Origin: Loktanella salsilacus
GTDB taxonomy: Bacteria > Pseudomonadota > Alphaproteobacteria > Rhodobacterales > Rhodobacteraceae
Reading direction: 5' to 3'
Length of the DNA stretch: 40,252 nt
Assembly: GCF_900114485.1 (NCBI RefSeq)
Contig: NZ_FOTF01000027.1
Coordinates: forward strand, 1-40,252
Position numbers and translations under genes: made by a program. Each line of letters starts with the position of its first letter. The first letter of the stretch is position 1. Below are positions 8,912 through 37,577 of the stretch, piece after piece. Under the pieces are notes generated by a model. It saw nothing but the letters and a program-made list of their open reading frames with translations. It was not told the DNA's origin and made no database searches.

Positions 8912-8972
8912 TGAAAAGGCTCCGTTGTGGCTGATTTGGGAAACAGATCTGGTTAAGGGATTCCGCTACTCA

Positions 8973-8990
8973 CCTTCCTGTGTGGGAAGG
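8973..8990 (-). promoter_or_regulatory. Candidate copper-responsive MerR-family (CueR-like) operator
   Basis: CCTTCC-N6-GGAAGG lies about 62-79 bases before the multicopper oxidase start. Read on the - strand it begins 'TTGCCTTCCC' and ends 'GGAAGGTGA', close to known copper-responsive operators (TTGACCTTCC...GGAAGGTTTA). No merR/cueR gene is in the window, so the regulator would be encoded elsewhere. Confidence 0.45.
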
Positions 8991-9092
8991 CAAGTCCCAT
9001 TTGAGGATGACCTCTTCAGCTCGCGGTCCCGTGATTGCTGTGAAGTACTCGAACGCAATGTGGTTGCCTCAGATTCATCGGGACCTTGCGCG

Positions 9093-11426
9093 CTACAACT
9101 TCACCCGGCGCAATCGCAGTGCGTTGGCGATGACCGAAACTGAGGAGAGGCTCATTGCCGCAGCCGCAATCATCGGAGATAGAAGCAGTCCGGTGACGGG
9201 ATAGAGCAGCCCAGCCGCGATAGGGATCCCAAGTGCATTGTAGGCAAAAGCAAAGAACAAATTTTGTTTGATATTGCGCAATGTTGCATGGGCGAGTTTG
9301 CGTGCCCGTACAATGCCCATCAGATCACCACCTAGCAAAGTGATACCCGCGCTTTCCATTGCAACATCGGCGCCAGTGCCCATGGCAATACCAACATCTG
9401 CAGCAGCCAGCGCCGGTGCATCATTGACCCCGTCGCCTGCCATTGCGATCTTGTGGCCATCCTTTCGCAATTGATCGATCAGCGTCTTCTTGTCTTCCGG
9501 CAATACACCGGCACGCACCTCGTCGATCCCCAGTTTCCCGGCAACCGCTTGCGCAGTACGTTCGTTGTCGCCCGTCGCCATGATCACGCGCAAACCTTGT
9601 GCATGCAGTTCCTTGATCGCCTGCGCTGTCGATTCTTTGATCGGATCGGCCACCGCAACGATCCCGGCCAGCGTGCCATCGACCGCAACAAACATTGCCG
9701 TCTTGCCATCGGTCCGCAGGGTGTCAGCTTTGGCATCGGCGTCTGCCGTGTCCAAATCCATATCCTTCATCATCGCAGAATTGCCAAGCGCCACGGCCCG
9801 CCCGCCGACTTTGCCACGCACGCCCTTACCTGTGACCGCCTCAAAGTCCGTAGCCTCTTGGCGTATCGCACCATGCGCTTCGGCCCCTTCCACGATGGCT
9901 TCAGCCAGTGGATGCTCAGAGCCACGCTCGAGCGCTGCGGCCAGGGAAAGAATGTCAGCCTCGGTCACATCGCTAAGGACTATTGTATCAGTCAGCTTTG
10001 GCTTGCCCATCGTCAGCGTGCCGGTTTTATCCACGATCAGCGTGTCGACCCCCGCCATGCGTTCAAGCGCCTCGGCATCCTTGATCAGCACGCCCGCTTG
10101 TGCGCCCCGCCCTGCTGCCGTCGTGATCGAAATCGGCGTCGCCAGCCCAAGGGCGCAGGGGCAAGCGATGATCAGTACCGAGACAGCCGCTGCGATGGCA
10201 AAGACTAACGCAGGGTCTGGGCCAAAGATCATCCAGAGTACAAAGGCGAGGATTGCTACCCCCACCACGGTCGGCACAAAGACAGCCGCGACCCGATCCG
10301 CCATACCTTGAATCGGCGCGCGTGACCGTCGTGCGTTCGACACCATAGCAACGATCTGCGCCAAAACTGTATCTGCGCCGACTTTACTCGCCTCAATGAC
10401 CAGAGAGCCGTTCTTATTGATCGTGGCACCCGTCACCGCATCGCCCGGGCCCTTTTCAACAGGCATCGATTCGCCGGTCAACATGCCCTCGTCCAGACTG
10501 GAGCGTCCTTCGATTACCGTACCATCGACCGGCACGGCATCACCGGGACGCACACGCAGGCGGTCGCCTTCCATAACGTTTTCCAGCGGTGCGTCGTATT
10601 CCGATCCATCCGGCAGGATACGCCGCGCAGTCTTTGGCGCGAGATCAAGAAGCGCCCGGATCGCATCACCGGTGCGTTCCCGTGCCCGCAGTTCCAAAAC
10701 TTGGCCAACGAACACCAGCGCAATGATGACAACCGCCGCCTCAAAATACGTGCCGACACCCTGACCCATCCGGTAAACTTCAGGGAAAATGCCTGGCAGA
10801 AATGTGGCCACGATAGAATAGAGATAGGCCGCCGCCACGCCCAAGCTAATCAGCGTCCACATATTGGGGGAGCGGTTAATCAGCGAGTCCCAGCCACGTT
10901 TGAAGAATGGCAAAGCAGCCCAAAGCACGATTGGCGTTGCCAGCACAAACTCGACATAGCTTGCTATCTGATGGCCAATCCAGTCACGAACCGGCAAACC
11001 CACCAGTTCGCCCATTGTGAGAACGATGAGCGGCACAGCTGCCACCGCAGAGATCCACATCCGGCGGGTAAAATCTGTCAATTCATGACTGGGCTCGTCC
11101 GTCGGCATAACCGGTTCCAGCGCCATGCCGCAGATAGGGCAAGGCCCAGGTGCATCGCGAATGATCTCAGGGTGCATCGGGCAGGTATACTGAACATCAG
11201 CCGGGGCGGCCTTCTTTCGCCCGGCAGCGCGGCCAGTGGCATAAAACCACGGATCGGCATTGAACTTCGTTTCGCATTTTTCCGAACAGAAATGATAAGT
11301 CTTGTTCTGAAAATCCGCATGACGCGTCTTAGCTCCCATAGCGACGGTCATACCACAGACAGGATCTTTGGCAGTCTCAGCGCCCTTAGGAATGACCGTC
11401 TCCATGTCTCCGTGAGCGTGTTCCAT
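9093..11426 (-). CDS. copA: Copper-exporting P1B-type ATPase with YHS and heavy-metal-binding N-terminus
   Basis: The 777-residue protein begins with a YHS domain (D-P-V-C-G-M at 21-26, Y-H-F-C-S-E-K-C at 44-51). A heavy-metal-binding module follows (C-P-M-H-P at 82-86, C-P-I-C-G-M at 96-101). The P-type ATPase core has T-G-E-S at 317-320, membrane metal motif C-P-C at 422-424, phosphorylated Asp466 in D-K-T-G-T, H-P at 504-505 and G-D-G-V-N-D near 664-669. The CPC motif and this N-terminus mark a Cu(I) exporter; the classical CxxC HMA domain is absent. I chose the ATG at 11426 because AAGG precedes it by a suitable distance; the frame extends 20 codons further upstream. It follows the APC permease gene by 63 bases. 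Confidence 0.92.
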
Positions 11427-11489
11427 TTTGTGGCAACCTTCTGATGATTTTCTTTTGCTTGGGGCTTCCAGCAGCTGGAAGCGCAAGCC

Positions 11490-12800
11490 TTATTTGTGTT
11501 GGTTATGTTGAATTTTGGGGATCGGGTGGCGCGCCAGAAAAACCCGCTCGAACAGGAACACCAGCGCCATGAACGTTAACCCAAGGATAACGATCAGCGG
11601 ATCGGACTGCCATTTCGATACCGCGAACACCATCAGCACCACGGCATCGAGCGCGATTGCAGTTAATAAAACCCAACCCCGGGCCTTTATGTCGTGGCGA
11701 AGATGTCGAAAGACGCCGATGTGGATGATGATATCCATCACCAAGTAGAACAATGCGCCAAGAGATGCGATGCGGCTCAGGTCAAAGAACACCGTCAGGA
11801 AGCCTGCGATCACTACGGTGTAGACGAGCGTATGGTCCTTGATCGTACCCGGCATTCCGAAATGGCTGTGCGGGATCATCTTCATATCCGTCAGCATGGT
11901 CAGCATCCGCGACACGGCGAACACACTTGCAATCAGCCCGGACGCCGTCGCTACGAGGGCAAGGGCCACTGTGAGGTAAAAGCCAGTTTTGCCAAGTGCG
12001 GGTTCCGCCGCTTCAGCAAGGGCATAGTCCTTTGCCGCCACAATGCGGTCGAGCGACAGACTGGAGCCTACAGCGAAGGCGACAAGCAGATAAACGACGA
12101 CACAAATCGCGATGGAAGCGACAATAGCCCGGCCCACATTTTGATGCGGGTTCGTAACCTCGGCACCGCTGTTGGTGATGGTCGTAAATCCCTTGAACGC
12201 GAGAATGGACAACGCGACGGACGCTACGAAGCCGGTAGCCCCGGCTTCTCCGACGCTCGCCTCAAATGTTATCCCACTCGCCCAAAGGCCTGCCGCCCCA
12301 AACAGCGTAATGCCACCAACTTTAAGTGCTGCCATGACAATAGACAAAAGTCCCACGGCGCGACTTCCAGAAATGTTGACCAAGTAGGCGAACACGATGA
12401 GCCCGACACCGAGCACCGGTACGAGGATGCTATCGGCTTCTCTGCCAAGAGCCCGCATCGCGTACGTGCCAAAGGTGCGTGCGACAAGACTTTCACTGAT
12501 GACCATCGACAACGTCATCAGTAATGCGGCCCCCGCGGCGACCGTTGTCGGCCCGTAGGCTTTTTGAAGGATCATCGCGATCCCACCCGAAGACGGGAAG
12601 GCGTTCGACATCTTGACATAGGTGTAAGCGCTGAACGCGGTCACAATCGCACCAACGACAAATGAAAGCGGGAATAACGGTCCTGCCAGTTCGGCGATTT
12701 GTCCGGTCAGCGCAAAAATACCCGCGCCGATCATCACGCCGGTGCCCATCGCAATTGCCGCGAGCAGAGTAATGCTATTTTTTGTGTAGACCTGTGTCAT
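11490..12800 (-). CDS. APC-superfamily amino acid/cation permease
   Basis: The 436-residue protein has about 12 hydrophobic segments. The first helix carries the APC signature 'GTGVMIGAGIFALTGQ', whose unwound G-A-G motif binds substrate in LeuT-fold transporters. The substrate cannot be told from sequence. Its position directly before the copper ATPase and after a small EF-hand/metal gene cluster suggests a link to metal stress, perhaps uptake of a thiol amino acid or another metal-binding solute; this is only a positional guess. The start overlaps the stop of a possible 29-codon upstream frame (TGATG). Confidence 0.85.
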   Translation of the reverse strand: MTQVYTKNSITLLAAIAMGTGVMIGAGIFALTGQIAELAGPLFPLSFVVGAIVTAFSAYTYVKMSNAFPSSGGIAMILQKAYGPTTVAAGAALLMTLSMVISESLVARTFGTYAMRALGREADSILVPVLGVGLIVFAYLVNISGSRAVGLLSIVMAALKVGGITLFGAAGLWASGITFEASVGEAGATGFVASVALSILAFKGFTTITNSGAEVTNPHQNVGRAIVASIAICVVVYLLVAFAVGSSLSLDRIVAAKDYALAEAAEPALGKTGFYLTVALALVATASGLIASVFAVSRMLTMLTDMKMIPHSHFGMPGTIKDHTLVYTVVIAGFLTVFFDLSRIASLGALFYLVMDIIIHIGVFRHLRHDIKARGWVLLTAIALDAVVLMVFAVSKWQSDPLIVILGLTFMALVFLFERVFLARHPIPKIQHNQHK

Positions 12801-14956: not shown

Positions 14957-16804
14957 ATGAACGTAGATCGCAAAACCATCGCAGTCACAGACGCGCAAAT
15001 CCCTTTCGCTGACCTCTATCTGTCGGACCTCAACCCGCGCAGCATCGTGAACGATGAAGCCATTGAACTGCTGGCCGCAAACATCCGCAAACTTGGCCTT
15101 ATCCAGAACCCCGCAGGTTTGCGCGATGCAGACGGCAAAGTCGCCATTGTGGCAGGTGGACGCCGTTACCGCGCCCTTGCGATGTTGCAGGACGAGGAAC
15201 GGTTTCAGACCGTGACCGTTCGCATGGCCCCCGATCAGGCGACGGCCGAGTTTTGGGCGACGAGCGAGAACGCGCAGCGCGAAGACCTGCACCCCGCCGA
15301 CGAAATCCGCGATTTTGGCATGATGAACGAGCGCGGCGTGAAGGTCGCAGACATTGCCGTTGCTTATGGCGTGACGGAGAAGCACGTTTATCGCCGCTTG
15401 GCCCTGTCAAACTTGCCCGCCCCTGTTCTGGACGCATTGAAGGCAGGAACCGTTAGCCTGTCCCATGCTGCGGCTTTCACAGTGAGCAACGATGAAGCTC
15501 TGACCTTGGAGGTTCTGGCGTCTCATTTGGAGCGCGTAGCCCAAGGCTGGGGCGGCCTTAGCGAACACATGATTAAGTCGCGCCTGAAGCCCAACAACGT
15601 GAAAGGCACAGACCGCCGCGCCGTGTTTGTGGGGCTGGACGACTATAAGGCCGCAGGAGGCCGCGTAGGTGCCGATCTGTTTGAGGACGTCACCACCTTT
15701 GACGATCCAGCCATTTTGGACCAGGTTTTCGCCGCAAAGCTGACCCAGACAGCCAACGACTATCCCGCCGCCCATGGCTGGAAATGGGCCGAGGCAACCA
15801 CCGAACCCTACATCGGCTATGATTTTGCCAAGAGCCAAACCCTTGGCAAACTCTATGCCATTGAAGGTGAATTGACCGAGGCAGAGGCGGAGCGTTGGGA
15901 CGAACTGGCCGAACTAGCAGACGCCGAGGCTTTGGACGAAGAAGGCACCGCCGAAATGGACGCCTTGCAGAAGAAGATGGACGGCGATTTTACCGACCTG
16001 CAGCGGGCGCTATCTGGCGTTGTGCTTTTTGTTGCGACCAATGGCACCGTGTCGCTTGAAAGCGGCTTTATCCGTTCCGAAGATATGGCCGCAGCCGTTG
16101 AAGCTGGATTTGTAGAGCCGTCCCGCCATGCCGAAGCAAACGCGACCCCGAAGCCTGCAATCTCTGAAACGCTAGGCCGTGATCTGGACCGGATCAGCAC
16201 AGGCGCACGTCAAAATGCGATGCTTGATGATCCTAAATTGGCCCTCCACCTACTGGCGTTCCAGCTATGCGGAAAGATGGGATACGACACCGCGTTTAGC
16301 CTGCGCAAAGACGAGGCGCCAAATGTCCCGGCCACCGAAACTGGCTATGTGCTGGACAAGCGCCTGACCGTTGCGGACGCCGACAACCGCAGCCCGTTCG
16401 ACCGTGACCACGCCGCCGAATTTGCCAAGTTTCGCAAGCGGGGCGATGCAAAGATCATGGACCTGCTGAACCGCTATCTGGTCAGTCAGTTGAGCATCAG
16501 AAACGCCGACCTTGGCGCGATGATCGACAAGCTAACAGCCAAGCGCACCCGCGACACCTTCACACCAACCGCCGAGAACTTCTTTGGCCGCGTGAACGGC
16601 GCTTACCTCAATGACCTATGGAGCGATCTTTTGGGATTGGCCGCAGACCACCCCACCGTGACCACGTTCGAGAAGTTGAAGAAGGGCGAGAAGGCTTTGA
16701 GACTAGAATGCCTGTTTGCCGATCCAGCAACACGCACGGCCCTTGGCCTGTCCGAAGACCAGACCTGTCGCATCAACGCATGGCTACCCGAAGGCATGGC
16801 CTGA
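14957..16804 (+). CDS. Large ParB/Srx-domain protein of plasmid leading-region type
   Basis: This is a 615-residue protein. Residues about 10-110 form the ParB/Srx nucleotide-binding domain, with 'LNPR' near 22-25, 'LIQNP' near 50 and G-G-R-R-Y-R-A near 72-78, the ParB CTP-box region. Residues about 130-200 contain the KorB-like helix-turn-helix ('VKVADIAVAYGVTEKHVYRRLALSNLP' region). The remaining 400 residues are unlike partition proteins. This is not the segregation ParB of the repABC cassette, which is separate. ParB-like proteins of this large kind are found in plasmid leading regions with ArdC and DUF3768; nuclease or transcription-factor roles have been proposed for relatives. No partner ParA is adjacent. 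Confidence 0.8.
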   Translation: MNVDRKTIAVTDAQIPFADLYLSDLNPRSIVNDEAIELLAANIRKLGLIQNPAGLRDADGKVAIVAGGRRYRALAMLQDEERFQTVTVRMAPDQATAEFWATSENAQREDLHPADEIRDFGMMNERGVKVADIAVAYGVTEKHVYRRLALSNLPAPVLDALKAGTVSLSHAAAFTVSNDEALTLEVLASHLERVAQGWGGLSEHMIKSRLKPNNVKGTDRRAVFVGLDDYKAAGGRVGADLFEDVTTFDDPAILDQVFAAKLTQTANDYPAAHGWKWAEATTEPYIGYDFAKSQTLGKLYAIEGELTEAEAERWDELAELADAEALDEEGTAEMDALQKKMDGDFTDLQRALSGVVLFVATNGTVSLESGFIRSEDMAAAVEAGFVEPSRHAEANATPKPAISETLGRDLDRISTGARQNAMLDDPKLALHLLAFQLCGKMGYDTAFSLRKDEAPNVPATETGYVLDKRLTVADADNRSPFDRDHAAEFAKFRKRGDAKIMDLLNRYLVSQLSIRNADLGAMIDKLTAKRTRDTFTPTAENFFGRVNGAYLNDLWSDLLGLAADHPTVTTFEKLKKGEKALRLECLFADPATRTALGLSEDQTCRINAWLPEGMA

Positions 16805-25171: not shown

Positions 25172-26374
25172 ATGCATTCAGTGCTGCACGATAAGTTGCG
25201 CGAAGACGCAGAGCGCCTTTCCGAAGCTTTGGAACACATGTCTAAGCTGTTCCTCGCCCCCAAAGAGGAAAAGACCCTCCGTAGCTTTGCAACGCCTGAA
25301 GTGGCAGAGCTGCTGCGCGTCAGTGACGGGTACCTTCGCAAAGCGCATTTCGATGGTCGCATTCCAGAGGTCGAGCAAGGGGCGAACAACAAGCGCCTTT
25401 ATACGGCAGAGAACATCATCGAAATCCGACACATCTTGGCGCAGAACGCTAAGGATCCTCTCCAGTTCCTCCCGGGCCGGCGACCCGGTGACAAGCTTCA
25501 AATCTGGTCTACCGTGAATTTCAAAGGCGGCTCAAGCAAGACCACCACGACAATAAGCCTCGGCATGCGGCTCGCCATGAGGGGGTATCGTGTACTCTTG
25601 CTCGACAGTGATCCACAAGCCTCCCTGACCACGTTCTTCGGCTATCAGCCGGAGATCGATTTCAGAAAAGGTGGCACCCTTTACGACGCAATTCGCTACA
25701 ATGATGGTGACAGCGTGCGCGTCCCGATCGTTGATGTACTCAAAAAGACCTATTTTCCCAATCTCGATATCGTTCCTGGCGGCATCATGCTGTCGGAGTT
25801 CGAGACCGAAACGCCTATGGCCCTTAGCCGCGGCGAGCAGCCTGTATTTTTCAATCGGATCCGGGACTCGCTACGGCAGGTTGAAGACGATTACGATATC
25901 GTTCTGATCGACTGTCCTCCTCAACTCGGATACCTGACAATGTCGGCGGTGTGCGCGTCGACCTCACTTCTGATGACCATCATTCCCGAGCGCGTCGATC
26001 TGGCCTCTGCAAGCCAATTCCTGACGATGGCCTCAGGCGTTCTCGAAGTGCTTCATACGAATGGCGGAATCGGCGCCTACGACAACTTCGCATATCTGCT
26101 GACGCGGTTCGATACGGCCATCAGCACACAGCAAGACTTATCCGAATGGATGCGGGAGCTTTTGGGCGACAGCGTCATAAAAACGCCTTTCGTCAAGTCT
26201 TCCGCGGTCAGTGAGGCCGGCCTCTCCCAAAAGACAATCTTCGAAGTTGATCTGTCGGCCGTCAAGAACCGCAAGACATACGAACGCGCATTGGAATCCG
26301 TCATCGGATTCTCCAACGACATTGAAATCATGATTCAGAACTCATGGGGACGAGGAGATAGTAATGAAACGTGA
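25172..26374 (+). CDS. repA: Plasmid partition ATPase RepA (repABC)
   Basis: In this 400-residue protein, residues about 38-90 form an N-terminal MerR-like winged helix ('ATPEVAELLRVSDGYLRKAHFDGRIP') typical of RepA, which represses its own operon. The ParA ATPase domain follows, with the deviant Walker A K-G-G-S-S-K-T-T-T at 118-126 and 'LLLDSDPQASLTT' and 'DIVLIDCPPQLG' downstream. It drives segregation together with RepB on parS sites. It overlaps repB by 11 bases. Confidence 0.95.
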   Translation: MHSVLHDKLREDAERLSEALEHMSKLFLAPKEEKTLRSFATPEVAELLRVSDGYLRKAHFDGRIPEVEQGANNKRLYTAENIIEIRHILAQNAKDPLQFLPGRRPGDKLQIWSTVNFKGGSSKTTTTISLGMRLAMRGYRVLLLDSDPQASLTTFFGYQPEIDFRKGGTLYDAIRYNDGDSVRVPIVDVLKKTYFPNLDIVPGGIMLSEFETETPMALSRGEQPVFFNRIRDSLRQVEDDYDIVLIDCPPQLGYLTMSAVCASTSLLMTIIPERVDLASASQFLTMASGVLEVLHTNGGIGAYDNFAYLLTRFDTAISTQQDLSEWMRELLGDSVIKTPFVKSSAVSEAGLSQKTIFEVDLSAVKNRKTYERALESVIGFSNDIEIMIQNSWGRGDSNET

Positions 26375-27314
26375 TCTGCTGTCACGCAGCCTTGCGCAGA
26401 TGGGGTCCAAAACTGCCGCCACCCCTGGGCCGTCCGGTACGGATGAGGGTGCTCCGCGTGCGCTCAAAAGTATGTCGGATGTTCTGGCTCAAGTCTCTTC
26501 ACAGTCGGCGCAGGACGTCAATGTCAACGACATTGCCGACTCCGATATCGCCGACCGCTTCGATGTCAGCGTCGAGCTCGACGCCCTCGTCGAATCCATC
26601 CAGACATCCGGCCAGCAGCTCCCTGCCCTTCTAAGATACCGCCGCGGTGCTGGACCGCGCTACGAAGTCGTCTATGGTCGTCGCCGTATTGCGGCGTGCC
26701 GGAGGCTCGGCATTCAAGTCAAAGCCTTCATCAAGGAAATGGATCCGCGCGAAGCGCTGGTGTCCCAAGCCCTCGAGAATTCGGCCCGCCTTGAACGCAG
26801 CTTCATTGAGCAGGCCATCTTTTCCGTCAAACTTGAAGACCAGGGGTTTACGCGCGCCGAGATCTGCGACGTTTTGGCCGTGGACAAGGGGACGTTGAGT
26901 AAACTGATTGGTGTTGCCAAGGATGTTCCAGAGGATGTCATCTACGGCATCGGCGCGGCCCATGACGTCGGCCGCAGGCAGTGGTTGGAACTACGCCGTC
27001 TTTTCGGCCTGGAAGGCCGACCGACCGATGAGGATGCGGTGGCGCTCCTTCCCACTGTAGGATCAGGCGCTGAAAAGATTGCCACAATTATCAAAGACAT
27101 GCAGGCAACGGAACATGCGGTGCCCGCGCGGGCTGCCAAGAGTATGGCTGCCCCCCCTGCCCCGCCGCGAAAGATAGGTGACACACCGGTCGCGTACATG
27201 GTGAAGGGGCACCGACTCACGATTGAAATATCGGATAAAAAAGAACACGGCTTCATTGGCTTCGTCGAGGACAATCTCGAAAAGCTATATTCGGCCTGGA
27301 AGGATGAAAAATAG
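26364..27314 (+). CDS. repB: Plasmid partition protein RepB (ParB family)
   Basis: The 316-residue protein has the RepB N-terminus (MKRDLLSRSLAQM), a ParB nucleotide-binding domain ('LVESIQTSGQQLPALLRYR', 'YEVVYGRRRIAACRRLG', 'EALVSQALENSARLERS') and a KorB-like helix-turn-helix ('GFTRAEICDVLAVDKGTLSKLI'). It should bind the four GTTGGCC-type palindromes downstream. GAGGAG precedes the ATG. Confidence 0.95.
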   Translation: MKRDLLSRSLAQMGSKTAATPGPSGTDEGAPRALKSMSDVLAQVSSQSAQDVNVNDIADSDIADRFDVSVELDALVESIQTSGQQLPALLRYRRGAGPRYEVVYGRRRIAACRRLGIQVKAFIKEMDPREALVSQALENSARLERSFIEQAIFSVKLEDQGFTRAEICDVLAVDKGTLSKLIGVAKDVPEDVIYGIGAAHDVGRRQWLELRRLFGLEGRPTDEDAVALLPTVGSGAEKIATIIKDMQATEHAVPARAAKSMAAPPAPPRKIGDTPVAYMVKGHRLTIEISDKKEHGFIGFVEDNLEKLYSAWKDEK

Positions 27315-27357
27315 TGAACATACGGAATTACAGCCCGTAACCCATTGTTTTCATTTA

Positions 27358-27373
27358 GTTGGCCACGGCCAAC
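27358..27373. promoter_or_regulatory. parS-like site 1 (repB-repC intergenic)
   Basis: GTTGGCCACGGCCAAC fits GTT-N4-GC-N4-AAC, the repABC parS consensus, except that the centre is AC rather than GC. It is the first of four copies. Confidence 0.75.
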
Positions 27374-27420
27374 TTCACCAAACCAACAATAACCGCAGTT
27401 AGAGGAGGCAGGCACCACAC

Positions 27421-27474
27421 AAAAAGAAACCCCCCGAAGGCGGTTAAGCGCTCCAGAGGGTCCCGATCTACTGC
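27421..27474 (-). ncRNA. Antisense ctRNA regulating repC (incompatibility RNA)
   Basis: Between repB and repC, the - strand has TTGCAG (complement at 27504-27509), a 17-base spacer and TACCAA (27481-27486). It ends in a terminator hairpin (AACCGCC/GGGGGGTT with a TTCG loop, 27428-27445) followed by T-rich sequence. The predicted RNA is about 54 nt, the usual size of repABC ctRNAs, which bind the repC leader and limit RepC translation. Position and structure fit; the promoter match is modest. Confidence 0.65.
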
Positions 27475-27552
27475 AATTTATTGGTACCCCTAAATTTTTA
27501 ACGCTGCAACACCGATTTCGGTGACCGGTATCATTTTGTCGTCTGAAAATGT

Positions 27553-28734
27553 ATGTACCACCACCCAGCAACGGCTCTTGAAGCCGAGGCACAGTCGATC
27601 TGTGCCGTAGATGAACACACCGCATTCGATGGTGTCGGAACGGTTGCGCAGCAGCCGCATTTTTGTCCGGTCAGGCGCCGTGATCTGTTGGCCGCGGTCA
27701 ATACCGCCGCAAAGGATCTTGGTTTGCGCCCCGCATCGGTTGTCGTCATCGACGCCCTGTTGAGCTGCCTGCCGTGCAAGGATCCCAAAACGGGTACCGA
27801 CAGTCCAATTACACCGCTAACGCTGCTGACAGTCTACGCCGCCAACGCCACACTTTGCTTCCGGGCGAAAGGCATAACCGACCGCCAGTTGCGTCGGCAT
27901 CTGGAGACACTCGAAGATGTCGGCCTGATCACACGAAAAGACAGCGCCAACGGGAAACGATTTCCCATCCAGCGATCTGGCAAGGTCATTGGTGCTTTCG
28001 GGATCGACCTATCACCTCTTCTGGCGCGGTCGGCAGAAATCATCCACTTAGCGCAACGACGCCGTGATGACGCCGCCGAGCTACGCGGGCTGCGGTCCTG
28101 CATCCAGTCGCTCCGAATAACATGTCTCGACCTCGACGTAGACACGGAGGCCACAAATTTTCTCGACAGCATCCGCAATATTCTACGTCGTGCCACGACG
28201 ACGGTCATCGAGGCACGCGCCATCATATCTAAACTCAAAGGCATCATCGCTGCCACCTGTGCCGTGACTAGTCCGGTTCAAACCTCGAACGAAACCGAGA
28301 TCTACATCCCGGTTAAAGCCTCCTGTGTAGCGCAAAAACACAACGCAGAACCGCATGAAACGTCCGCCACAGACGGACAAAATGACCGGCACAAAGAACC
28401 TACAAAATCATATACAAAAAAAATAACCCCCCAATCATTGACGAACCTCTGGCATAGACTCACGCATATTCGAAATTTCTACCCCGATATGCCGCGATCA
28501 GATCATCACGCCCTCCAAATCGTATATGAGTTCGGAAAAATGCTGAGAATTGACCCTGATATTTTGGCAAGTGGCATCGCATCGAAAGGCTGGCAAGTTG
28601 CGCTTGAAGCTCAGAATGAAATCGCCGCACGTGTTGCAACCATTGCCGACCCCACAAGTTATTTTGGGCGCTTGTTGAGGACCGGCAACAGACTGAGCCA
28701 AACGTTCATCCCCGACGTGAGAAGCTATGCCTGA
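27553..28734 (+). CDS. repC: Plasmid replication initiator RepC (repABC)
   Basis: The 393-residue protein carries RepC hallmarks: 'RRRDLLAAVNTAAKDLGL' near 38-55, 'VVIDALLSCLP', 'ANATLCFRAKGITDRQLRRHLETLEDVGLI' (winged helix, about 98-127), 'NGKRFPI' and 'GAFGIDLSPLLAR' near 145-160. RepC starts replication at an origin that, in this family, lies within its own gene. No strong ribosome-binding site precedes the ATG, in keeping with control by the antisense RNA. Confidence 0.95.
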   Translation: MYHHPATALEAEAQSICAVDEHTAFDGVGTVAQQPHFCPVRRRDLLAAVNTAAKDLGLRPASVVVIDALLSCLPCKDPKTGTDSPITPLTLLTVYAANATLCFRAKGITDRQLRRHLETLEDVGLITRKDSANGKRFPIQRSGKVIGAFGIDLSPLLARSAEIIHLAQRRRDDAAELRGLRSCIQSLRITCLDLDVDTEATNFLDSIRNILRRATTTVIEARAIISKLKGIIAATCAVTSPVQTSNETEIYIPVKASCVAQKHNAEPHETSATDGQNDRHKEPTKSYTKKITPQSLTNLWHRLTHIRNFYPDMPRSDHHALQIVYEFGKMLRIDPDILASGIASKGWQVALEAQNEIAARVATIADPTSYFGRLLRTGNRLSQTFIPDVRSYA

Positions 28735-29951: not shown

Positions 29952-30539
29952 GTGGATCAATCAGGCATCATCATCGTAGATGATGCGGCATGGGAACAGG
30001 CAGTTAATCGGGAGGCGGTGATCTGCCGCTTGGCAAACAAAGCCCACCCTGATCGTGCCAAATTTCTTCCAGCCTGTCGGCAGCTTGGGGTCAAACGAAC
30101 CCGTCTTTAACAGCTGATCAAAGCGTACGAAGCGCTGCCGATCGCCAGATCTCTTCTGACAGCCGCAGCGGGCACCCAAACGCGTGGTGGACGACCGCCG
30201 GAAATGAACGAAGCCGTGATGATTGCTCGGGCGGTTGAGAACATCTGCAAGTCGCGTCAGAAACTGAGAATTAATGAGTGGCACAAGGAAGTGCGCATCC
30301 GCGACATCAGGAGGGCAGGGGACCGCAGCGCTATCGGCTCTGCCTATTTGTTCAACGGCCGCTTCGGATCGAAGTCGATCAGCCGGATACTTTCGCCCTT
30401 ACGGAACAATCCGTCAGCGCGAAGGGCCGTGGGTGTTGATATCCCGACGCCACCATCGGTGGATGCAAAGTTGATTAAGCGCATGTGGGAGCCTAAACGC
30501 CTGGCAGCAGTTCTGACCCAGACTGGACCGTCACTATGA
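29952..30539 (+). pseudogene. N-terminal remnant of a Mu/TniA-type transposase
   Basis: From GTG at 29952 the frame encodes 'VVDDAAWEQAVNREAVICRLANKAHPDRAKFLPACRQLGVKRTRL', interrupted by TAA at 30108-30110. It continues in the same frame 'QLIKAYEALPIARSLLTAAAGTQTRGGRPP' and 'VENICKSRQKLRINEWHKEVRIRDIRRAG'. This is the N-terminal, DNA-binding part of Mu-transposase-C family transposases. The catalytic DDE part is missing. Between 30540 and 30801 I see no further supported gene. Confidence 0.65.
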
Positions 30540-30801: not shown

Positions 30802-31284
30802 TTAAAGGCCGTTCGTCTTGCGGAAGATCTGCGCCAGTTCTTCGTCATGCTCCCGCAGGAATTCACGCAGCAAAATCGCGGGGCTTGCGAACTTTCGAGC
30901 ATCGGGGCTCAGGCTCAATATTTTGTCGCGTATGGCGAGCGCGAGGTCGCTCGAATGAGCCACAGTCACCCGCAGTTGCTTGGGCTCAACGGCAGCTGCG
31001 GCCGGTTCAGGTTTGCGAGTCGGGGTCTGCGCGGTGTTGGGTGGAGCGATGTTCACTGTTTCATCCGAAGACTGTTGTTCGGTAGGTGCCGCATTTGGCG
31101 TGTGATCGGACTGTATGTCAGCTGGAGGCGCTTTGCTTGGTGCCGGCGTCAGCTCTGATTGTGACGTGTCAGCTTCAGTTTTACCGAGACCGTTCGCCTT
31201 CGCTGTTGTTGCAATGGAAGCCCGGTCTCGGTCCGTGAGGCCCGGAACAGGCATCTTTTGGCGGGGCTTGCGTTCAACAGCCAT
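30802..31284 (-). CDS. Partner protein of the VirC1/ParA-like ATPase (possible VirC2/ribbon-helix-helix type)
   Basis: This 160-residue protein has a disordered Pro/Ala/Thr-rich middle (about 35-100) and a compact C-terminus (about 103-160): 'KQLRVTVAHSSDLALAIRDKILSLSPDARKF', then 'AILLREFLREHDEELAQIF'. One short strand followed by two helices is what a ribbon-helix-helix domain looks like, and the segment can be laid against the RHH core of VirC2; this is by eye only. It overlaps the ATPase gene by one base (TAATG), so the two are made together. The likely role is DNA binding at the heptad array or transfer origin. Confidence 0.6.
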   Translation of the reverse strand: MAVERKPRQKMPVPGLTDRDRASIATTAKANGLGKTEADTSQSELTPAPSKAPPADIQSDHTPNAAPTEQQSSDETVNIAPPNTAQTPTRKPEPAAAAVEPKQLRVTVAHSSDLALAIRDKILSLSPDARKFASPAILLREFLREHDEELAQIFRKTNGL

Positions 31285-31985
31285 TAAAATTCTCCCGTGA
31301 TAAGGGCGGCCAACGCATCTGCGGCCCTCTGTATTTTTTTGATCGCCTCAAAGCTTCGACCATCAGCTTCTGCCGCAGCGATTGCTTCGTCGCTGGTCAT
31401 ATCGTCACCAATAAACGATTTGATCGCGCTTGAGCGATGCAATCCTTTGATCGCGCCATAATGACCATGGATGAGTTCTTCATAAGCAAGCATTTGAGCG
31501 TTCGGAAATTGGCCCTCTTTTTGGTAGATGACAGTGAGAAAGTCTTTGGGGTCTGTGTCGTCATCGCCCGTCGCTTCGAGGGCAATTTTAAAGTAGGCTA
31601 ATGTCTTTTCAACGCCGGTTACTTCGTTCTTTTCAGGGCCACACGGCGAAAATACGCGGTCGCAGATTGCAAGAGCTGCCATTTGCTTCGCATCTTCACC
31701 GCCCTTCGTATCAATTATGATCCAATCAACGTCATCTTGAAGCCGGTCCAGCATCATATTGTAGCACTCCGCCACTGTCGCTTCGTGCCGTATATCAAAG
31801 TCGATGATATCAATGCCTTCGTTGCGTGCGCAAACAGGGATCGCCCAGTTTGTGACACTAGCCTGATTGTCGAAGTCAATGATCTGGACGGTTTGACCGC
31901 TCCGAAAGAAGCTGTCCGCAACGAGGGCTGCAGTTGTGGACTTGCCGACTCCACCTTTGGTTGAAGCGAAAGTAATGATCTTCAT
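31284..31985 (-). CDS. ParA/VirC1-like ATPase
   Basis: The 233-residue protein has Walker A K-G-G-V-G-K-S-T at 10-17, 'VQIIDFDNQASVTNWA' (A' motif) near 33-48 and 'WIIIDTKGGEDA' (Walker B) near 88-99. It lacks the N-terminal HTH of RepA. The 'IIIDTKGG' form and the position beside mobilisation genes resemble VirC1 of Ti plasmids, which brings the relaxosome to the secretion channel; a second partition system is the other possibility. GAGGA precedes the ATG, and the heptad array begins 62 bases upstream. Confidence 0.8.
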   Translation of the reverse strand: MKIITFASTKGGVGKSTTAALVADSFFRSGQTVQIIDFDNQASVTNWAIPVCARNEGIDIIDFDIRHEATVAECYNMMLDRLQDDVDWIIIDTKGGEDAKQMAALAICDRVFSPCGPEKNEVTGVEKTLAYFKIALEATGDDDTDPKDFLTVIYQKEGQFPNAQMLAYEELIHGHYGAIKGLHRSSAIKSFIGDDMTSDEAIAAAEADGRSFEAIKKIQRAADALAALITGEF

Positions 31986-32046
31986 TCTGCTGTCCTCAGT
32001 GTCGGAGCCGGTGCATGTCTTGGAGCCTGTGTTGTTCTAGGCGGTA

Positions 32047-32243
32047 ACCTACAGCCTGCCACCTATAACCTACAACCTGCTACCTGTAGGCTATAGCCTG
32101 AAACCTGAAATCAAGCGGCTACAACTTTCTGCCCATCACCTGAAGGCTCTGTCCCGAAGCCTAAAACTTCTGACCTCTACTTTTGCAGCCTCCTACCTCC
32201 TGCCTTTAACCTTCTGCCTGCAACCGTGTGCCCAAAGCCTTTG
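32047..32243. repeat. Array of about 27 degenerate 7-bp repeats (consensus RCCTNNA)
   Basis: From 32047 the core RCCT recurs every seven bases: ACCTACA, GCCTGCC, ACCTATA, ACCTACA, ACCTGCT and so on. By my count 17 units have a perfect RCCT and most others differ by one base. Phase is kept to about 32179, shifts by one base, then continues with GCCTCCT, ACCTCCT, GCCTTTA, ACCTTCT, GCCTGCA to 32243. It lies immediately upstream of the VirC1/ParA-like gene, where it could be the operator and centromere for a ribbon-helix-helix protein. No reading frame explains a 7-base period. Confidence 0.85.
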
Positions 32244-32533
32244 GCAGCACGGATGGATTTGATGCTGGCAGCAACCGCAGGCGCACTGGCAAATGGAACT
32301 CATCGGGATCGCGCCTTGAGGCGTTGGATCGAAATGCCGTTTCCGCCTTCCAATGAAGCATAGGGATTGTGAGTGGGGCAGGGTGGGGCAAGGCCCGACT
32401 TCGCAATGAGAGGCCCGCTTTGAGGCCTCTGTGGACATTTTTCGCCCCTTCGAGGCGGTCACACCTACGGTGTTCCGTCGCTACCCCGGTGGGCGCTCCG
32501 TCGCGTCCCTGCGGGTCGCTCAAACGGACTAAA

Positions 32534-32580
32534 ATTATAGATATGTGGCAGAGCTATAGTTGCGCGCACATATCTATAAT
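32534..32580. repeat. 14-bp perfect inverted repeat of the probable oriT
   Basis: ATTATAGATATGTG and CACATATCTATAAT are perfect arms separated by 19 bases. The AT-rich arms lie between the heptad array and the mobilisation genes, 16 bases from the nick-site match. Likely a relaxosome accessory-protein site. Confidence 0.75.
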
Positions 32581-32595
32581 GTTAGGGAAGGGGTA

Positions 32596-32604
32596 GCAGG
32601 ATAT
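32596..32604 (-). other. Candidate P-type oriT nick site
   Basis: The - strand reads ATATCCTG followed by C, matching the nick region of P-type origins and T-DNA borders (ATCCTG, cut after G). Cleavage would fall between 32597 and 32596 and send the - strand out toward lower coordinates. Its place right before MobC and a VirD2-type relaxase makes it credible; the match alone is short. Confidence 0.65.
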
Positions 32605-33190
32605 GCAGCTTGCAAGACATTTTCGTTTTAGGGCTTTCCAAATGCCGAAATCGTTCAAGACCAAGGACAAAATCGCGGCCTCGAACATGCTCTTGGAGGG
32701 CGAGACCCCAAAGTTGGTCGCGGCAAAATTTGGCGTCCACATTTCCACGATCTACGCTTTGCGAAAGGATCGGGGTCACGGCCATACCAAGCCGGATCGC
32801 GCCTCCCACAACATCACATTCCGCCTGTCCGACGTAGAGTTGCGGGCGTTGGACGTCTTCATTGTGGATGCGGGATTGCCTTCGCGAACCGCCGCCTTGC
32901 GCTCACTGGTGCGCTCCGCGACGGGTTTCCTAGAGCTGCGTCGCGATGAACTGCTCGATCTGACCGAGGCGAGACGCGAGTTGCGTGCCCAGGGGCGCAA
33001 CCTCAATCAGCTGACCTACGCGATGAACAGGTCGGCTTTGAGGGGTGGGGCGAAGCTATCGCCAGAGGATAAGCAGTTTCTGGCGACAGTTCGGCATACC
33101 TTCACCGTCGTCGACAGGCTGATTTCTGTCGGTTTCAGCGAGGTGCGACAGCAAGGCCGGAACGCATTGCACGCGGGAGAACACCTGTGA
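32603..33190 (+). CDS. MobC-like relaxosome protein with N-terminal helix-turn-helix
   Basis: From ATG at 32603 the product is 195 residues; a second ATG at 32642 would keep the nick site outside the gene and give 182. The N-terminal part has a resolvase-like HTH ('PKLVAAKFGVHISTIYALRK'). It is followed by a ribbon-helix-helix segment ('HNITFRLSDVELRALDVFIVDAGL') and the MobC signature 'LRAQGRNLNQLTYAMN'. MobC proteins open oriT and help the relaxase nick. An HTH fused in front of MobC is unusual. It overlaps the relaxase start by 4 bases. Confidence 0.82.
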   Translation: MQLARHFRFRAFQMPKSFKTKDKIAASNMLLEGETPKLVAAKFGVHISTIYALRKDRGHGHTKPDRASHNITFRLSDVELRALDVFIVDAGLPSRTAALRSLVRSATGFLELRRDELLDLTEARRELRAQGRNLNQLTYAMNRSALRGGAKLSPEDKQFLATVRHTFTVVDRLISVGFSEVRQQGRNALHAGEHL

Positions 33191-35565
33191 GCGGCGGGTT
33201 CTACGATGATATCATGATCCGGGCGCGGCGCAGTGCGGGCCATACGTCCGTTGGCGGTGCAACGTCGCGTGGCAATCGTGTCTGGAAAAGCCTGACCTCG
33301 ACAGGCAGCGCCTTCGTCAAGCGCATCCCTGGCGCTGGCGTTCAGCATCAAAAGCAACTGGCGGGACAGCTGGCTTATGTGAACGGCAAGGCCAAGGGCA
33401 TCTTCGGCTTCGCCCCCGGCGTCAGCATCGATGACGACGCTTTTGCCCAGGCTGATCTTGATCAGATGATGAGCGCATGGGCGCAAAACTGGAAGGGTCG
33501 CCCCCGCAACGGCCATACTAGCCACATGGTGTTGTCGTTCCCCGACGACGTGTCCCAGGACGCCGCCTTCGTGATCGCGCAACAGTGGTGCGCTGAAATG
33601 TTCGAGGATCAGACGCATATCGCGGAGACTTGGGAATACGTTGCGGTCCTGCACACTGACACCGCCAATCCTCATGTTCATGTCGTTCTGAATAATCGTG
33701 GCGAAAATGGGACGTGGTTTTCCATATCATCCGAAGGGATTTTCAATCCCCAGATGATGCGGGACCGCATGACCGACATTGCCGACACTTACGGCCTGCG
33801 GCTTGAAAGCCTGACACGCGCCGACCGGGGCCTTTATGGCGCACCTATCACAAGTGCCGCAGTCTTTGCCGCCCGCGAAGGCCGCACACTCGCAACCCCC
33901 GAAGTCAAAAGCAGTCTGACCTCTGAATGGCGCAGGCAGGATATCCAGGAGACCGCAGAGCTTTACACCACCTTGGCCGAATTTGCCGAGACCATCGGCG
34001 CACCGATGATTGCGAAGCGTGCGTATATTTCAGCAGCAGCCCTATTCGCAGGCAATGCAGTCCCGAAAGGACAGATGATGGACATTGACCTTGATGTCAC
34101 CGCAGACCGCGAGGACATACGCACGACTTTGATCGGATGGGCCGAGCAGAACAAAGACGCCATTGACGCTTTGCCGCAGAGCCGTCGTGCGTCGGTCATG
34201 TCAAAGATCGACTCCGCATTAAACATCATCGAAACAGACGTGACCCCGGACTTGACGAACGACACGATCTGGCCCGCTTACAAAGAAGCGCCGTCGTCGT
34301 ATCTCATTCCTGACGCCGGCGCTTTGGAGGCCCGCGCAGCCCTGTATATCACCGAAGAAAATGCGGGTCTGTTGCAAGAGTTCGCCATTGAGAACATCTT
34401 GGACACCTACCTTGTGACCGGCGAAGTGCCGGACAGGTTCAGGGCGGTTATGCCCGCCGTGGCTGACGCCTATGCGGAAATGCATAACCACCGGCTCGCA
34501 GAAATCCCCAAGGAGATAAAAGCCTACGTCCTGAAAGGTGCCCAGATGGGCTTGGACCCTGTGACGGTGCAAGAGCGGCTTATTAATGCGATTGGCGATC
34601 CGGTTGAGAACGCCCGCATGGAACGGGGCGACATAGCCGCGATTGCCGCCGCGATGCCAATGCCGCCACGCGACGTGGAGGCTTTTAAAGATGCGTCCCG
34701 CCGCATTGAAGAAGCAACCACTCTCGTCGTCGAGGATGGAGTTTCGACCCCGCTTGATCGTTTTGAGGGGATGCAGATTGCGCTCTCTCAAGCGGAAACA
34801 ACGAAAGGTCAGCCTGGCAAAGAACGTGCGCTCGATCAGCTTGGAAACGAGTTGATCGACCTTGCGACGGCAAAGCAGCGCGGCGATCTCACGAAAGAGC
34901 AGGAGCAGGCTTTCGATGCTGTCGCGCCGAAGATTTTCGCACGGCACGGCAAAGACATTAAAGCCGCAATGATGGCCGTTGCGACCAACGATCTTGGTTC
35001 AGCCGAGGATGATCGGCAGGTTTTGAGGCCCGAGCTATCCCGCGAACAAAACGAAGCGATGATACGGCAGGAGGCCGCGGGCCGCGTTCTGCAAATCGAA
35101 AGCAAATTCGGAGCGAAGGCCGTCGAATCTCGGATGGTATCAGAGAACTACGAAGTCGCCGCTGGCCGTTACCGCGACTGGCAGATGGAACTTGGCAGGG
35201 TCGAAGAGACCATCATCGCTGACAGCAAGGTCTACGATCGTGACGGCGTGGCCCGTGTCATGCAGGACGTGGCCAACACCGCTGCAGCGACAGACCGCGC
35301 CGATCTGGCGGACAGTGCAGCAGGCCGTCAAATGCTGACGGCATTTGTCGCCTTGGAGGGCAGGGGGGCCATGCAGGAGGTGGCATCCGGCAACATGGAT
35401 TCACTTTGCGAATACGTCGATACGCCCGCCAACCAGCGACTTGCGGCGAAGGAGCTTCTGAAAAGCGCAAAATCTGTCGATGTGGGCTTGGGACTGGATG
35501 AAATTGAAACCGGTCTTGAGGCCGTCGATCCGAATTATGCGCGCTCGCGCGGGCTTTCGATTTGA
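33187..35565 (+). CDS. VirD2/MOBP-type relaxase
   Basis: In this 792-residue protein the relaxase domain occupies about residues 45-230. The catalytic Tyr is probably Tyr64 in 'QLAYVNGKAKG'. Motif II is 'SHMVLSFP' near 112. The three-histidine metal motif is H156 ... P-H163-V-H165-V-V. The long C-terminal part (about 560 residues) is acidic and helical and probably carries the secretion signal. It should nick oriT, stay bound to the 5' end and be passed through a type IV secretion channel. No virB genes are in the window. Confidence 0.88.
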   Translation: MSGGFYDDIMIRARRSAGHTSVGGATSRGNRVWKSLTSTGSAFVKRIPGAGVQHQKQLAGQLAYVNGKAKGIFGFAPGVSIDDDAFAQADLDQMMSAWAQNWKGRPRNGHTSHMVLSFPDDVSQDAAFVIAQQWCAEMFEDQTHIAETWEYVAVLHTDTANPHVHVVLNNRGENGTWFSISSEGIFNPQMMRDRMTDIADTYGLRLESLTRADRGLYGAPITSAAVFAAREGRTLATPEVKSSLTSEWRRQDIQETAELYTTLAEFAETIGAPMIAKRAYISAAALFAGNAVPKGQMMDIDLDVTADREDIRTTLIGWAEQNKDAIDALPQSRRASVMSKIDSALNIIETDVTPDLTNDTIWPAYKEAPSSYLIPDAGALEARAALYITEENAGLLQEFAIENILDTYLVTGEVPDRFRAVMPAVADAYAEMHNHRLAEIPKEIKAYVLKGAQMGLDPVTVQERLINAIGDPVENARMERGDIAAIAAAMPMPPRDVEAFKDASRRIEEATTLVVEDGVSTPLDRFEGMQIALSQAETTKGQPGKERALDQLGNELIDLATAKQRGDLTKEQEQAFDAVAPKIFARHGKDIKAAMMAVATNDLGSAEDDRQVLRPELSREQNEAMIRQEAAGRVLQIESKFGAKAVESRMVSENYEVAAGRYRDWQMELGRVEETIIADSKVYDRDGVARVMQDVANTAAATDRADLADSAAGRQMLTAFVALEGRGAMQEVASGNMDSLCEYVDTPANQRLAAKELLKSAKSVDVGLGLDEIETGLEAVDPNYARSRGLSI

Positions 35566-35567
35566 AA

Positions 35568-37577
35568 ATGACCGTCGCCTGTCTGATCGCAGTTATCTGC
35601 GGTCTTGTCGCCGGGTCCGGTATTTCCAGCGTCTTTCTGACGATCGCCCTGGGGCGAGACATTCTGGCAACCGACCTCATGCTGCACACCAAAACCCTCA
35701 TGTCTGGCATGTTGGTTCAACAGCCGTATCTAACCGGCCATTTGATCGTGTTGGCCGCCGTCGCATTTTTCCTGCTGATCGCACTTGTGACGGTGGCCCA
35801 GGATCGGCTCGTCAACTATGGCGACAGACGGTTTCAGTCTAAATCGAGCGTCCGCAAAAACCTGATGCTGAATGAGCCGGGCGCTGGTTTTGTCCTTGGT
35901 GAGCATGTCGCCCCGCCAGCACAGCACCCAGATCGACCAATCAACATCAAGGCCAACAACACCGACCCCGAAAAGAACAAGTCTCTGAACACCCGCCGTG
36001 TCCGCTACATCGCGGCACTCTATAGCACCGTCAGCAACATCCTGTTGGTCGCGCCGACGCGCAGTGGTAAGGGCGTTGGTTTCGTTATCCCGAACGCACT
36101 GACATTTCCCGGCTCTATGGTTGCGCTGGACGTGAAAGGCGAGCTGTGGGTCGAGACGTCAAGAGCGCGTGCACAGCTTGGCGACAAAGTTTTCCGGTTC
36201 GCGCCGTTCGACTTCAAGCACCCGACGCACAACTACAATCCCTTGGCAGGTGTCGCTGATATTGAAAACATGGAGGAGCTTTGGACGGCGATTGGCCGCG
36301 TCGCGCATCTGTTTCTACAATCAGACGGCAATCAAGATTGGCTGGATGGTTCGATCCTGCTGTTCATCTCCGCAGGCATCCTTGCCGTTCAACGTGGCAA
36401 TGCGACGATGGGGGAAATCTACCGGATCATCTTCGGAACGGGCGAGGGGGCGGATATTGGCAAGTCCTCTGCCGAACGCCTGCTGGAAGCCGCAAAGGAA
36501 TGCCAGTATCCGCCCGCAGCACGCCAACTTAACTACACGGCATCGCTGGACGCAAAAATCTCGCAGAGCTTTATCTCCATCTTGAGCACAGCGGGCCTGT
36601 CGCAGTGGGCGAACCCCAAAGTGGAGCGCGTCACACGCACAAGCGATTTTGACTTCAGGGAAATGCGTCGCACGCCAATGTCGATCTATTTGGAAGTGCT
36701 GTCCGACGACGTTCAGGACCTCAATTCCCTGATCCGGCTTTTCTTTGCGGACCTTATTTCATTCCTGCGTTCGTCAAAGCCGGAGGCCGACGAGCCTTTT
36801 CCAGTGTTCATCTTGTTGGACGAATTTGACCAGTTGGGCCACATGCCCCTTGTTGTTCAGGCCATGAAACAAACGGCTGGTCATGGCGGACGGTTCGCAA
36901 TTGTTACTCAGTCCGTTCCAGGCCTTCTGTCCGTTCCATACACCCCGGAGGAAGTGCAGGCGATTGAAAGCGCCTGTCAGGTCAAACTCTATCTTGCGCC
37001 CAAGGAAGACCGCACGGCCAGCGAGATCGAGACCCTGCTCGGGGATCGAACGGGATCAACCAAGAATCGTCAGAAAGAGGTCAAGACTGTCGGCTTTGGC
37101 GGCGGCGGTGTCACGACCGGCACGGAAAAGCGCCCGCTTCTGACAAAGCAGGAAATCCGGCAGATGGACCCCAACAAGATTCTCATTGTTCCCGACAGCC
37201 AGAACCCGATTTTGGGCGACCGCATCAAATACTATGAATCCAAGCAGATCAGAGCGATCTACGAAGCTCAGGATAAGACCGTCTATCCCTACCCAGAAGC
37301 CGACGATCCGAAGCACCGTGCCATGACCATGACGGAAGTCAGGAAACGTGCGACGCAGGCCACAGAGACGCAGAATGCTAAGATTGGACAACGCGATGAG
37401 AACATGACGAAGGCGCGTGAACCGAAAACAACCGTGCCACAAAGGCGTCGCGAAAAGGCCCCCGTGAAAGCAAAGCCGAAGGGGAAGCTAGGGCCAGCAG
37501 CGCAAGCTGCGTTGGTTGATACAATGAACAGCGCCCAAAACCAGTTGAAACAGGAAGGGGGCCCGAAGGCCGCTTGA
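35568..37577 (+). CDS. virD4: VirD4/TraG-type coupling protein
   Basis: This 669-residue protein has two N-terminal membrane segments (about 2-30 and 56-78). Walker A is A-P-T-R-S-G-K-G-V-G near 163-172 and Walker B 'FILLDEFDQLG' near 414-424, followed by 'VTQSVPGL'. It is the ATPase that links the relaxosome to the secretion channel. I use the ATG at 35568, two codons after a TTG that overlaps the relaxase stop. The tail is rich in Lys/Pro/Ala. The 258 bases after it hold no convincing gene. Confidence 0.92.
   Translation: MTVACLIAVICGLVAGSGISSVFLTIALGRDILATDLMLHTKTLMSGMLVQQPYLTGHLIVLAAVAFFLLIALVTVAQDRLVNYGDRRFQSKSSVRKNLMLNEPGAGFVLGEHVAPPAQHPDRPINIKANNTDPEKNKSLNTRRVRYIAALYSTVSNILLVAPTRSGKGVGFVIPNALTFPGSMVALDVKGELWVETSRARAQLGDKVFRFAPFDFKHPTHNYNPLAGVADIENMEELWTAIGRVAHLFLQSDGNQDWLDGSILLFISAGILAVQRGNATMGEIYRIIFGTGEGADIGKSSAERLLEAAKECQYPPAARQLNYTASLDAKISQSFISILSTAGLSQWANPKVERVTRTSDFDFREMRRTPMSIYLEVLSDDVQDLNSLIRLFFADLISFLRSSKPEADEPFPVFILLDEFDQLGHMPLVVQAMKQTAGHGGRFAIVTQSVPGLLSVPYTPEEVQAIESACQVKLYLAPKEDRTASEIETLLGDRTGSTKNRQKEVKTVGFGGGGVTTGTEKRPLLTKQEIRQMDPNKILIVPDSQNPILGDRIKYYESKQIRAIYEAQDKTVYPYPEADDPKHRAMTMTEVRKRATQATETQNAKIGQRDENMTKAREPKTTVPQRRREKAPVKAKPKGKLGPAAQAALVDTMNSAQNQLKQEGGPKAA

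Follow-up and report, generated by a model that had tools for sequence, protein, structure and literature searches.

A 7-bp repeat array that accompanies a ParA operon beside nic-like sites in Loktanella and other alphaproteobacterial plasmids: a candidate operator and centromere

Why should a plasmid carry some 30 contiguous 7-bp units immediately in front of an operon for a ParA-type ATPase, in a region that also holds a nic-like site and borders divergent relaxosome genes? The question is raised by contig NZ_FOTF01000027.1 of Loktanella salsilacus, whose 40,252 nucleotides (nt), analysed in full, we call the window. An earlier note on this DNA had proposed either a centromere for a second partition system or an 'overdrive'-like transfer enhancer. 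By analogy with known plasmid modules, we consider it likely that the array is the heptad operator/centromere of the ParA and its small partner protein, working like the stb/stbDR module of plasmid R388, and we file the locus as an stb-like module with omega-like spacing. Three features are central to this reading:

32036–32242, minus strand: heptad array; 207 nt and about 29.6 units in a phase-tracking model, with one slip of 1 nt near 32187
31284–31985, minus strand: ParA-type deviant Walker ATPase, 233 amino acids, first gene after the array (PF13614, 9.4e-16; VirC1 PF07015, 1.9e-5)
30802–31284, minus strand: partner gene, 160 amino acids, overlapping the ParA stop and following ParA in five close loci

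Periodicity was scored as base identity at lags of 7, 14 and 21 nt over positions 32047–32243, with 2,000 dinucleotide-preserving shuffles as the null. Identity at the three lags was 0.458, 0.486 and 0.489, against 0.15–0.32 at lags not divisible by 7. The autocorrelation proposed with the first reading thus gave a clear result, as none of the 2,000 shuffles matched any of the three values; elsewhere in the window the next lag-7 peak is 0.36 and none exceeds 0.37. A recount, together with the lag identities and the shuffles, bears out the claim of 17 perfect RCCT cores with a single 1-base slip: 11 of the cores within this interval lie in the first phase and 6 in the next, after the slip at about 32187. 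The consensus is AGGYNNN on the minus strand, which is that of the ParA operon (RCCTNNN on the plus strand), and the array ends 50 nt from the ParA start codon (31985). Coding repeats were rejected as an explanation because the array is intergenic, and replication iterons because repC sits elsewhere in the window (27553–28734). Of the 14-bp superperiod claimed for the second half, the alternation of GCCT and ACCT runs through just six units (G A G A G A) before two G units follow; identity in this part is 0.63 at lag 14 and 0.48 at lag 7 over 57 nt, and we rate the superperiod as weak. Separately, a strong 14-bp superperiod was seen in the Roseobacter litoralis array (L077, 2312–2985), with a best lag-14 score of 0.61 and a best lag-7 score of 0.42.

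Within the genus, this ParA is present in four of nine genomes, including its own. Three close copies (one in G006 and two in G005; ParA 92–95% identical) carry the same array with the same motif, and Loktanella atrilutea (G001; ParA 49% and partner 33% identical) has an array of period 7 with a different motif, csATgcg. Across the four close Loktanella copies, mean pairwise identity is 0.81 in the heptad core, 0.58 in the spacer (Mann–Whitney p = 9e-9) and 0.83 in the rest of the intergenic region, core and spacer being phased by a model that had been fitted to the window, one of these four copies. A gap of 20–21 nt, roughly three units long, falls at one and the same alignment position in three of the four. 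The intergenic DNA of the window found no match at blastn sensitivity in the plasmid set, where its ParA had one partial match only, and viral contigs held no relative of that ParA. A scan of genome contigs returned eight ParA loci, two of them the known Loktanella relatives and the other six 23–47% identical over part of the protein.

The wider survey covered 31 mob/ParA loci: five Loktanella copies (window included), three further genome loci (G029, G175 and G425) and 23 plasmids. A ParA search had returned 130 plasmid records; 22 of the 23 tested were among the 60 listed and one (NZ_CP034814.1) came from another listing. They were picked for diversity, with no Agrobacterium record included and the rest of the 130 left out; a Paracoccus marcusii plasmid with another ParA type (L052) stands outside the 31, and L070 and L083 are the same record (p1PARARS4). 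Martelella pMM259, from a rhizobial host, was among those tested; PMC5613091 describes it as having a type IV secretion system of rhodobacteral origin. The best period at each locus was compared with 200 shuffles. The earlier note had staked its reading on a 7-bp phase conserved in related plasmids, and the best period is 7 in 25 of the 31 loci, in each case with 0 of 200 shuffles as high, a count of loci that are not independent (19 pairs among the 25 have ParA identity of at least 80%). The best period was 8 in three loci (L073, L082 and L089), 4 in one (L080) and 12 in two (L081 and L088); all 31 beat their shuffles, L080 and L081 narrowly. Of 715 control tiles only two, which overlap each other, reached 0.42 for period 7; both cover a second array in p1PARARS4. 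A further 26 ParA-bearing loci (L013–L038) had no lag-7 peak above 0.42 within about 3 kb each.

In all 25 period-7 loci the array ends 0–72 nt before the ParA start and spans 161–466 nt, or 23–66 units. Across loci the motifs drift (AGGY, ACA, tGC, GCGTT) while the period stays: motif similarity falls from 0.97 for ParA pairs at least 80% identical to 0.71 at 50–80% and 0.36–0.48 below that, with the period unchanged.

Several other periodic stretches are worth recording in their own right. L080, L081 and L088, Paracoccus plasmids of a single ParA clade, show a weak 4/12-bp periodicity and no heptads. L073, L082 and L089 have 8-bp arrays where relatives carry 7-bp ones, so unit length itself varies, and 8-bp periodic stretches also lie beside other ParA genes in L019, L027 and L052. 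The second 7-bp array of p1PARARS4 (L083, about 25675–25754) is shorter, has the same GCGTT motif and lies far from the main one, in the gap upstream of a gene annotated as an AAA ATPase; a gene of ParB/RepB/Spo0J type is not far away.

Does the array belong to the ParA operon or to the relaxosome beside it? On the side of the array opposite ParA, VirD1-, VirD2- and VirD4-like genes are transcribed away from it:

32529–32585, no strand: inverted repeat beside the nic-like site, 19-nt arms (32529–32547 and 32567–32585), 95% complementary
32594–32604, minus strand: nic-like site ATATCCTGCTA / TATCCTGC, a motif match; cleavage would fall between 32597 and 32596
32603–33190, plus strand: VirD1/MobC-like accessory relaxosome protein (PRK13858 VirD1, 2.9e-4, below its cut-off)
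33187–35565, plus strand: VirD2-like relaxase (PF03432, 1.4e-12; VirD2, 7.2e-18, below its cut-off)
35562–37577, plus strand: VirD4/TraG-like coupling protein (PF02534, 4.9e-69)

The VirD1-like gene probably starts at an internal ATG near 32642, close to where homology to L. atrilutea begins. The nic-like site was read by the MOBP-type consensus, TATCCTG^C; if nicked accordingly, the array and then ParA would be the first DNA to enter the recipient. In 22 of 26 loci the same strand carries a nic-like motif, with the parts in this order (none in L070, L072, L081 and G005b); its distance from ParA is 339–764 nt, rising to 2139 nt where a transposase gene of the IS5 family intervenes. In the 8-bp locus L073 the array is 33 nt from ParA and the nic-like site 2.1 kb off. 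Among the 23 plasmids, a relaxase is annotated divergently beside the ParA operon in 20, the exceptions being p1PARARS4 (none annotated), L082 (MobC and an LPD7 protein) and L088 (a hypothetical protein).

The two associations come apart at loci that have only one neighbour. The VirD1 of the window had no match in the plasmid set at 1e-8; in 394 genomes of the family it had 11 matches other than its own, in 10 genomes, one of them (in G409, with no ParA in its flank) 64% identical to it. The array occurs in three of three such loci with a flanking divergent ParA (G029, G175 and G425) and in none of the eight without, a contrast drawn over about 1.5 kb of flank per locus and in which the three ParAs are mutually close. 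Conversely, p1PARARS4 keeps the array, ParA and partner without an annotated relaxase/MobC or a nic match, a status that comes from an incomplete PLSDB gene table and that goes with VirB2/VirB3-type genes just upstream. Judged from sequence, the array follows ParA and not the relaxosome, because it tracks ParA among the VirD1 loci and persists on the relaxase-less plasmid. The earlier reading is thus borne out in part: by the shuffles and the relatives, this is a conserved, non-random, 7-bp-phased site of a ParA–partner operon, beside a nic-like site.

How might such a site work? PMC3098194 reports that StbA of R388 binds direct repeats upstream of stb, that loss of stbA raises both transfer and plasmid loss, and that loss of stbB, the gene for a ParA-type ATPase there compared with VirC1, abolishes conjugation, which provides a precedent for a joint role in stability and transfer. 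The repeats lie around the promoter in R388 and directly upstream of ParA here, and in the window and the four other Loktanella copies, relaxase genes and the operon for a ParA/VirC1-like ATPase are divergently arranged on either side of the transfer origin. In R388, the stbDRs form two groups of five 9-bp repeats with 2-nt spacing (an 11-bp period), whereas the arrays here consist of 23–66 contiguous 7-bp units; stbA precedes stbB, whereas ParA comes first here. RP4 has the StbA-like TraK, and partition-related proteins of NAH7 act at the origin of transfer (oriT; PMC12421886).

The spacing finds its closest counterpart in the delta/omega system of pSM19035, and the comparison drawn in the earlier note is apt in period and in the overlap with the upstream region of the operon. 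In PMC9499535, contiguous 7-bp units (WATCACW) overlap promoter regions at the genes for ParA and ParB, and at least four contiguous heptads are needed for full ATPase activation by omega; the units here lie upstream of ParA. That plasmid has six sites of 7–10 units with heptads in mixed native orientation, unlike the one long array found here (and a second, shorter one in one relative), which has other letters and a relaxase beside it. Its ParB is a ribbon-helix-helix protein, whereas the partner here gave no credible family or structure match and a low-confidence model.

The third comparison, with VirC1/VirC2 and overdrive of Ti-type plasmids, is supported by a ParA-like ATPase with a small partner, VirC1-family scores and virD-like genes nearby. 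The window ParA has a deviant Walker A motif (KGGVGKS), a ParA-class profile and Protein Data Bank (PDB) matches to ParF and ParA; against VirC1 it scores 24.6 bits, passing the Pfam cut-off of 24, and 29.5, failing the NCBIfam equivalog cut-off of 313. Overdrive lies on the other side of nic from the position of the array here. At the virC locus of Rhizobium etli p42a (L087), the one canonical VirC1 locus compared, period 7 again scores best but is matched in 28 of 200 shuffles, so no 7-bp array stands above chance. The alternative 'centromere or overdrive' therefore needs recasting, as relative to nic the array sits where a leading-region stb/TraK module does in R388 and RP4.

On this analogy, we infer that the partner is the array-binding protein. 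Its copies would line up on the DNA, one on each heptad, across 160–470 bp that start no more than 72 bp from the ParA start codon, and such cooperative binding would repress the ParA–partner operon. The partner–array complex would also load the ParA ATPase and mark the plasmid for it, and the ATPase would then position the plasmid. With the array placed in the leading region of the transfer origin, this one complex may serve inheritance and also tune or localize conjugation, as StbA and StbB do on the R388 stbDRs.

When the 23 plasmids were searched whole, this ParA was the only PF13614 match in 13, where none else passes the PF01656 cut-off (in W06, one of the 13, this ParA itself falls just under the PF13614 cut-off). 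This sole-ParA status concerns ParA-class ATPases only and not other kinds of partition system; a ParM search found none in the 13, with a control that gave no match anywhere either. An initiator of RepC type is present in 10 of the 13, several of which are near relatives.

A number of observations weigh against the operator/centromere reading. Ten of the 23 plasmids carry a further ParA-class match, as does the window, whose plasmid, with repABC, needs no second partition site. Six of the 31 loci have a period of 8 or 4/12 rather than 7. The contrast of three against eight VirD1 loci leans on three close relatives and about 1.5 kb of flank, and the top period-7 score among the loci without ParA, 0.406 (L066), is near array level. 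A promoter scan found no sigma-70-like promoter. Pfam and profile searches gave no family match for the window partner and no PDB sequence match, and its structure model compared with PDB folds gave nothing below E = 9. Finally, the Loktanella clade stands on a very long branch of the ParA tree (5.9 changes per column), and its partner shows no detectable relation to the partners of other clades.

The middle of the partner is predicted to be disordered and its C-terminal 60 or so amino acids are conserved; the structure model (mean predicted local distance difference test score 61, predicted TM-score 0.26) has a helical C terminus at low confidence, and the ribbon-helix-helix fold suggested earlier stays unconfirmed. 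A partner-profile search of 394 genomes from 393 genera of the family found only the window's own match (1 of 394), and the partner profiles A2, A3 and A4 had no credible match to a solved structure. By contrast, hhalign links the two large partner groups with a probability of 96%. Given the long ParA branch and a partner with no detectable kinship to the others, the period in the Loktanella clade would be either convergent or kept at the site through gene replacement.

Could the array serve transfer alone? Partner and ParA might act like VirC2 and VirC1, or like TraK and TraL of RP4, bringing the relaxosome to the secretion channel and playing no role in inheritance. The relaxase beside the array in most plasmids, the frequent nic-like site and the separate repABC of the window plasmid would suit this, and three roseobacter-type ParAs match VirC1 near full length (PRK13849, 5e-22 to 5e-25, below cut-off). 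We nevertheless think it unlikely: the array, ParA and partner persist on p1PARARS4, the sole ParA-class ATPase of 13 plasmids sits in this module, and the single canonical VirC1 locus has no array above chance.

A pure operator, through which the partner cooperatively represses the operon with no centromere or transfer role, would account for arrays that end so near ParA that its promoter would fall in or beside them. It seems quite improbable to us, as 23–66 units over 160–470 bp look like more than a simple repressor needs, and the requirement for at least four contiguous heptads in pSM19035 (PMC9499535) better fits a scaffold. Binding by VirD1/MobC or the relaxase, which would make the array an accessory site of oriT, has in its favour that most loci have the array inside the mob intergenic region; an exchanged block in Loktanella seems to move transfer genes and array together and so does not separate the two. 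The split among VirD1 loci, the array kept at a locus without annotated MobC and its closeness to ParA, not nic, make such binding very improbable. A neutral satellite born of replication slippage, suggested by runs of near-identical units in some arrays (L079 and L073), is barely credible beside the higher identity of core than of spacer, the constancy of place and period across deep ParA clades whose letters differ, and the mere two comparable tiles among 715 controls, both on one related array.

There is a broader possibility, one we hold only tentatively and with the balance somewhat against it: heptad arrays beside the transfer origin would be the overlooked centromeres of RepC-only replicons in the Rhodobacterales, single units for inheritance and transfer whose period is held by the geometry of a protein filament on DNA while the letters drift quickly, giving co-resident plasmids compatible, private centromeres. 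We did not find the array described in the published literature (open-licence papers only), including term look-ups in papers on roseobacter plasmids. What emerges is a DNA element that is widespread among marine and soil plasmids of alphaproteobacteria, at their transfer origins; it may be a docking site aiding plasmid inheritance or transfer, and it gives RepC-only plasmids a candidate for partition. The natural series of arrays with constant spacing, different letters and some shifts from 7 to 8 suits the study of how centromere-binding proteins and their sites co-evolve, and bears on whether inheritance and transfer share one machine.

The remaining features of the contig bear on the history of the site:

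25172–28734, plus strand: repABC replication/partition genes (RepA, RepB and RepC), same contig
30266–30484, minus strand: decayed N-terminal piece of a further ParA, lying behind the partner gene and of type II like the L. atrilutea ParA, to which it is 67% identical over 63 amino acids; one stop codon counted inside

A second working ParA behind the partner was rejected because the copy at 30266–30484 is decayed. One G005 copy has a second ParA–partner pair of atrilutea type behind the first, cut by an insertion sequence (IS); the tandem ParA copy is apparently cut at its start by IS-like sequence. Together with the remnant in the window, this pair suggests that ParA–partner units seem to replace one another at this site.

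Elsewhere in the same genome, a VirB10-type gene lies on another contig (C76). The window also encodes, at 14957–16804 and outside the repABC and ParA operons, a 615-amino-acid protein with ParB N-terminal and helix-turn-helix domains, and L083, L084 and L086 also have proteins with annotated ParB domains. At 7409–12800 the window carries genes for a multicopper-oxidase-like protein, a copper-type P-type ATPase and an amino-acid-transporter-like protein, likely metal-resistance cargo.
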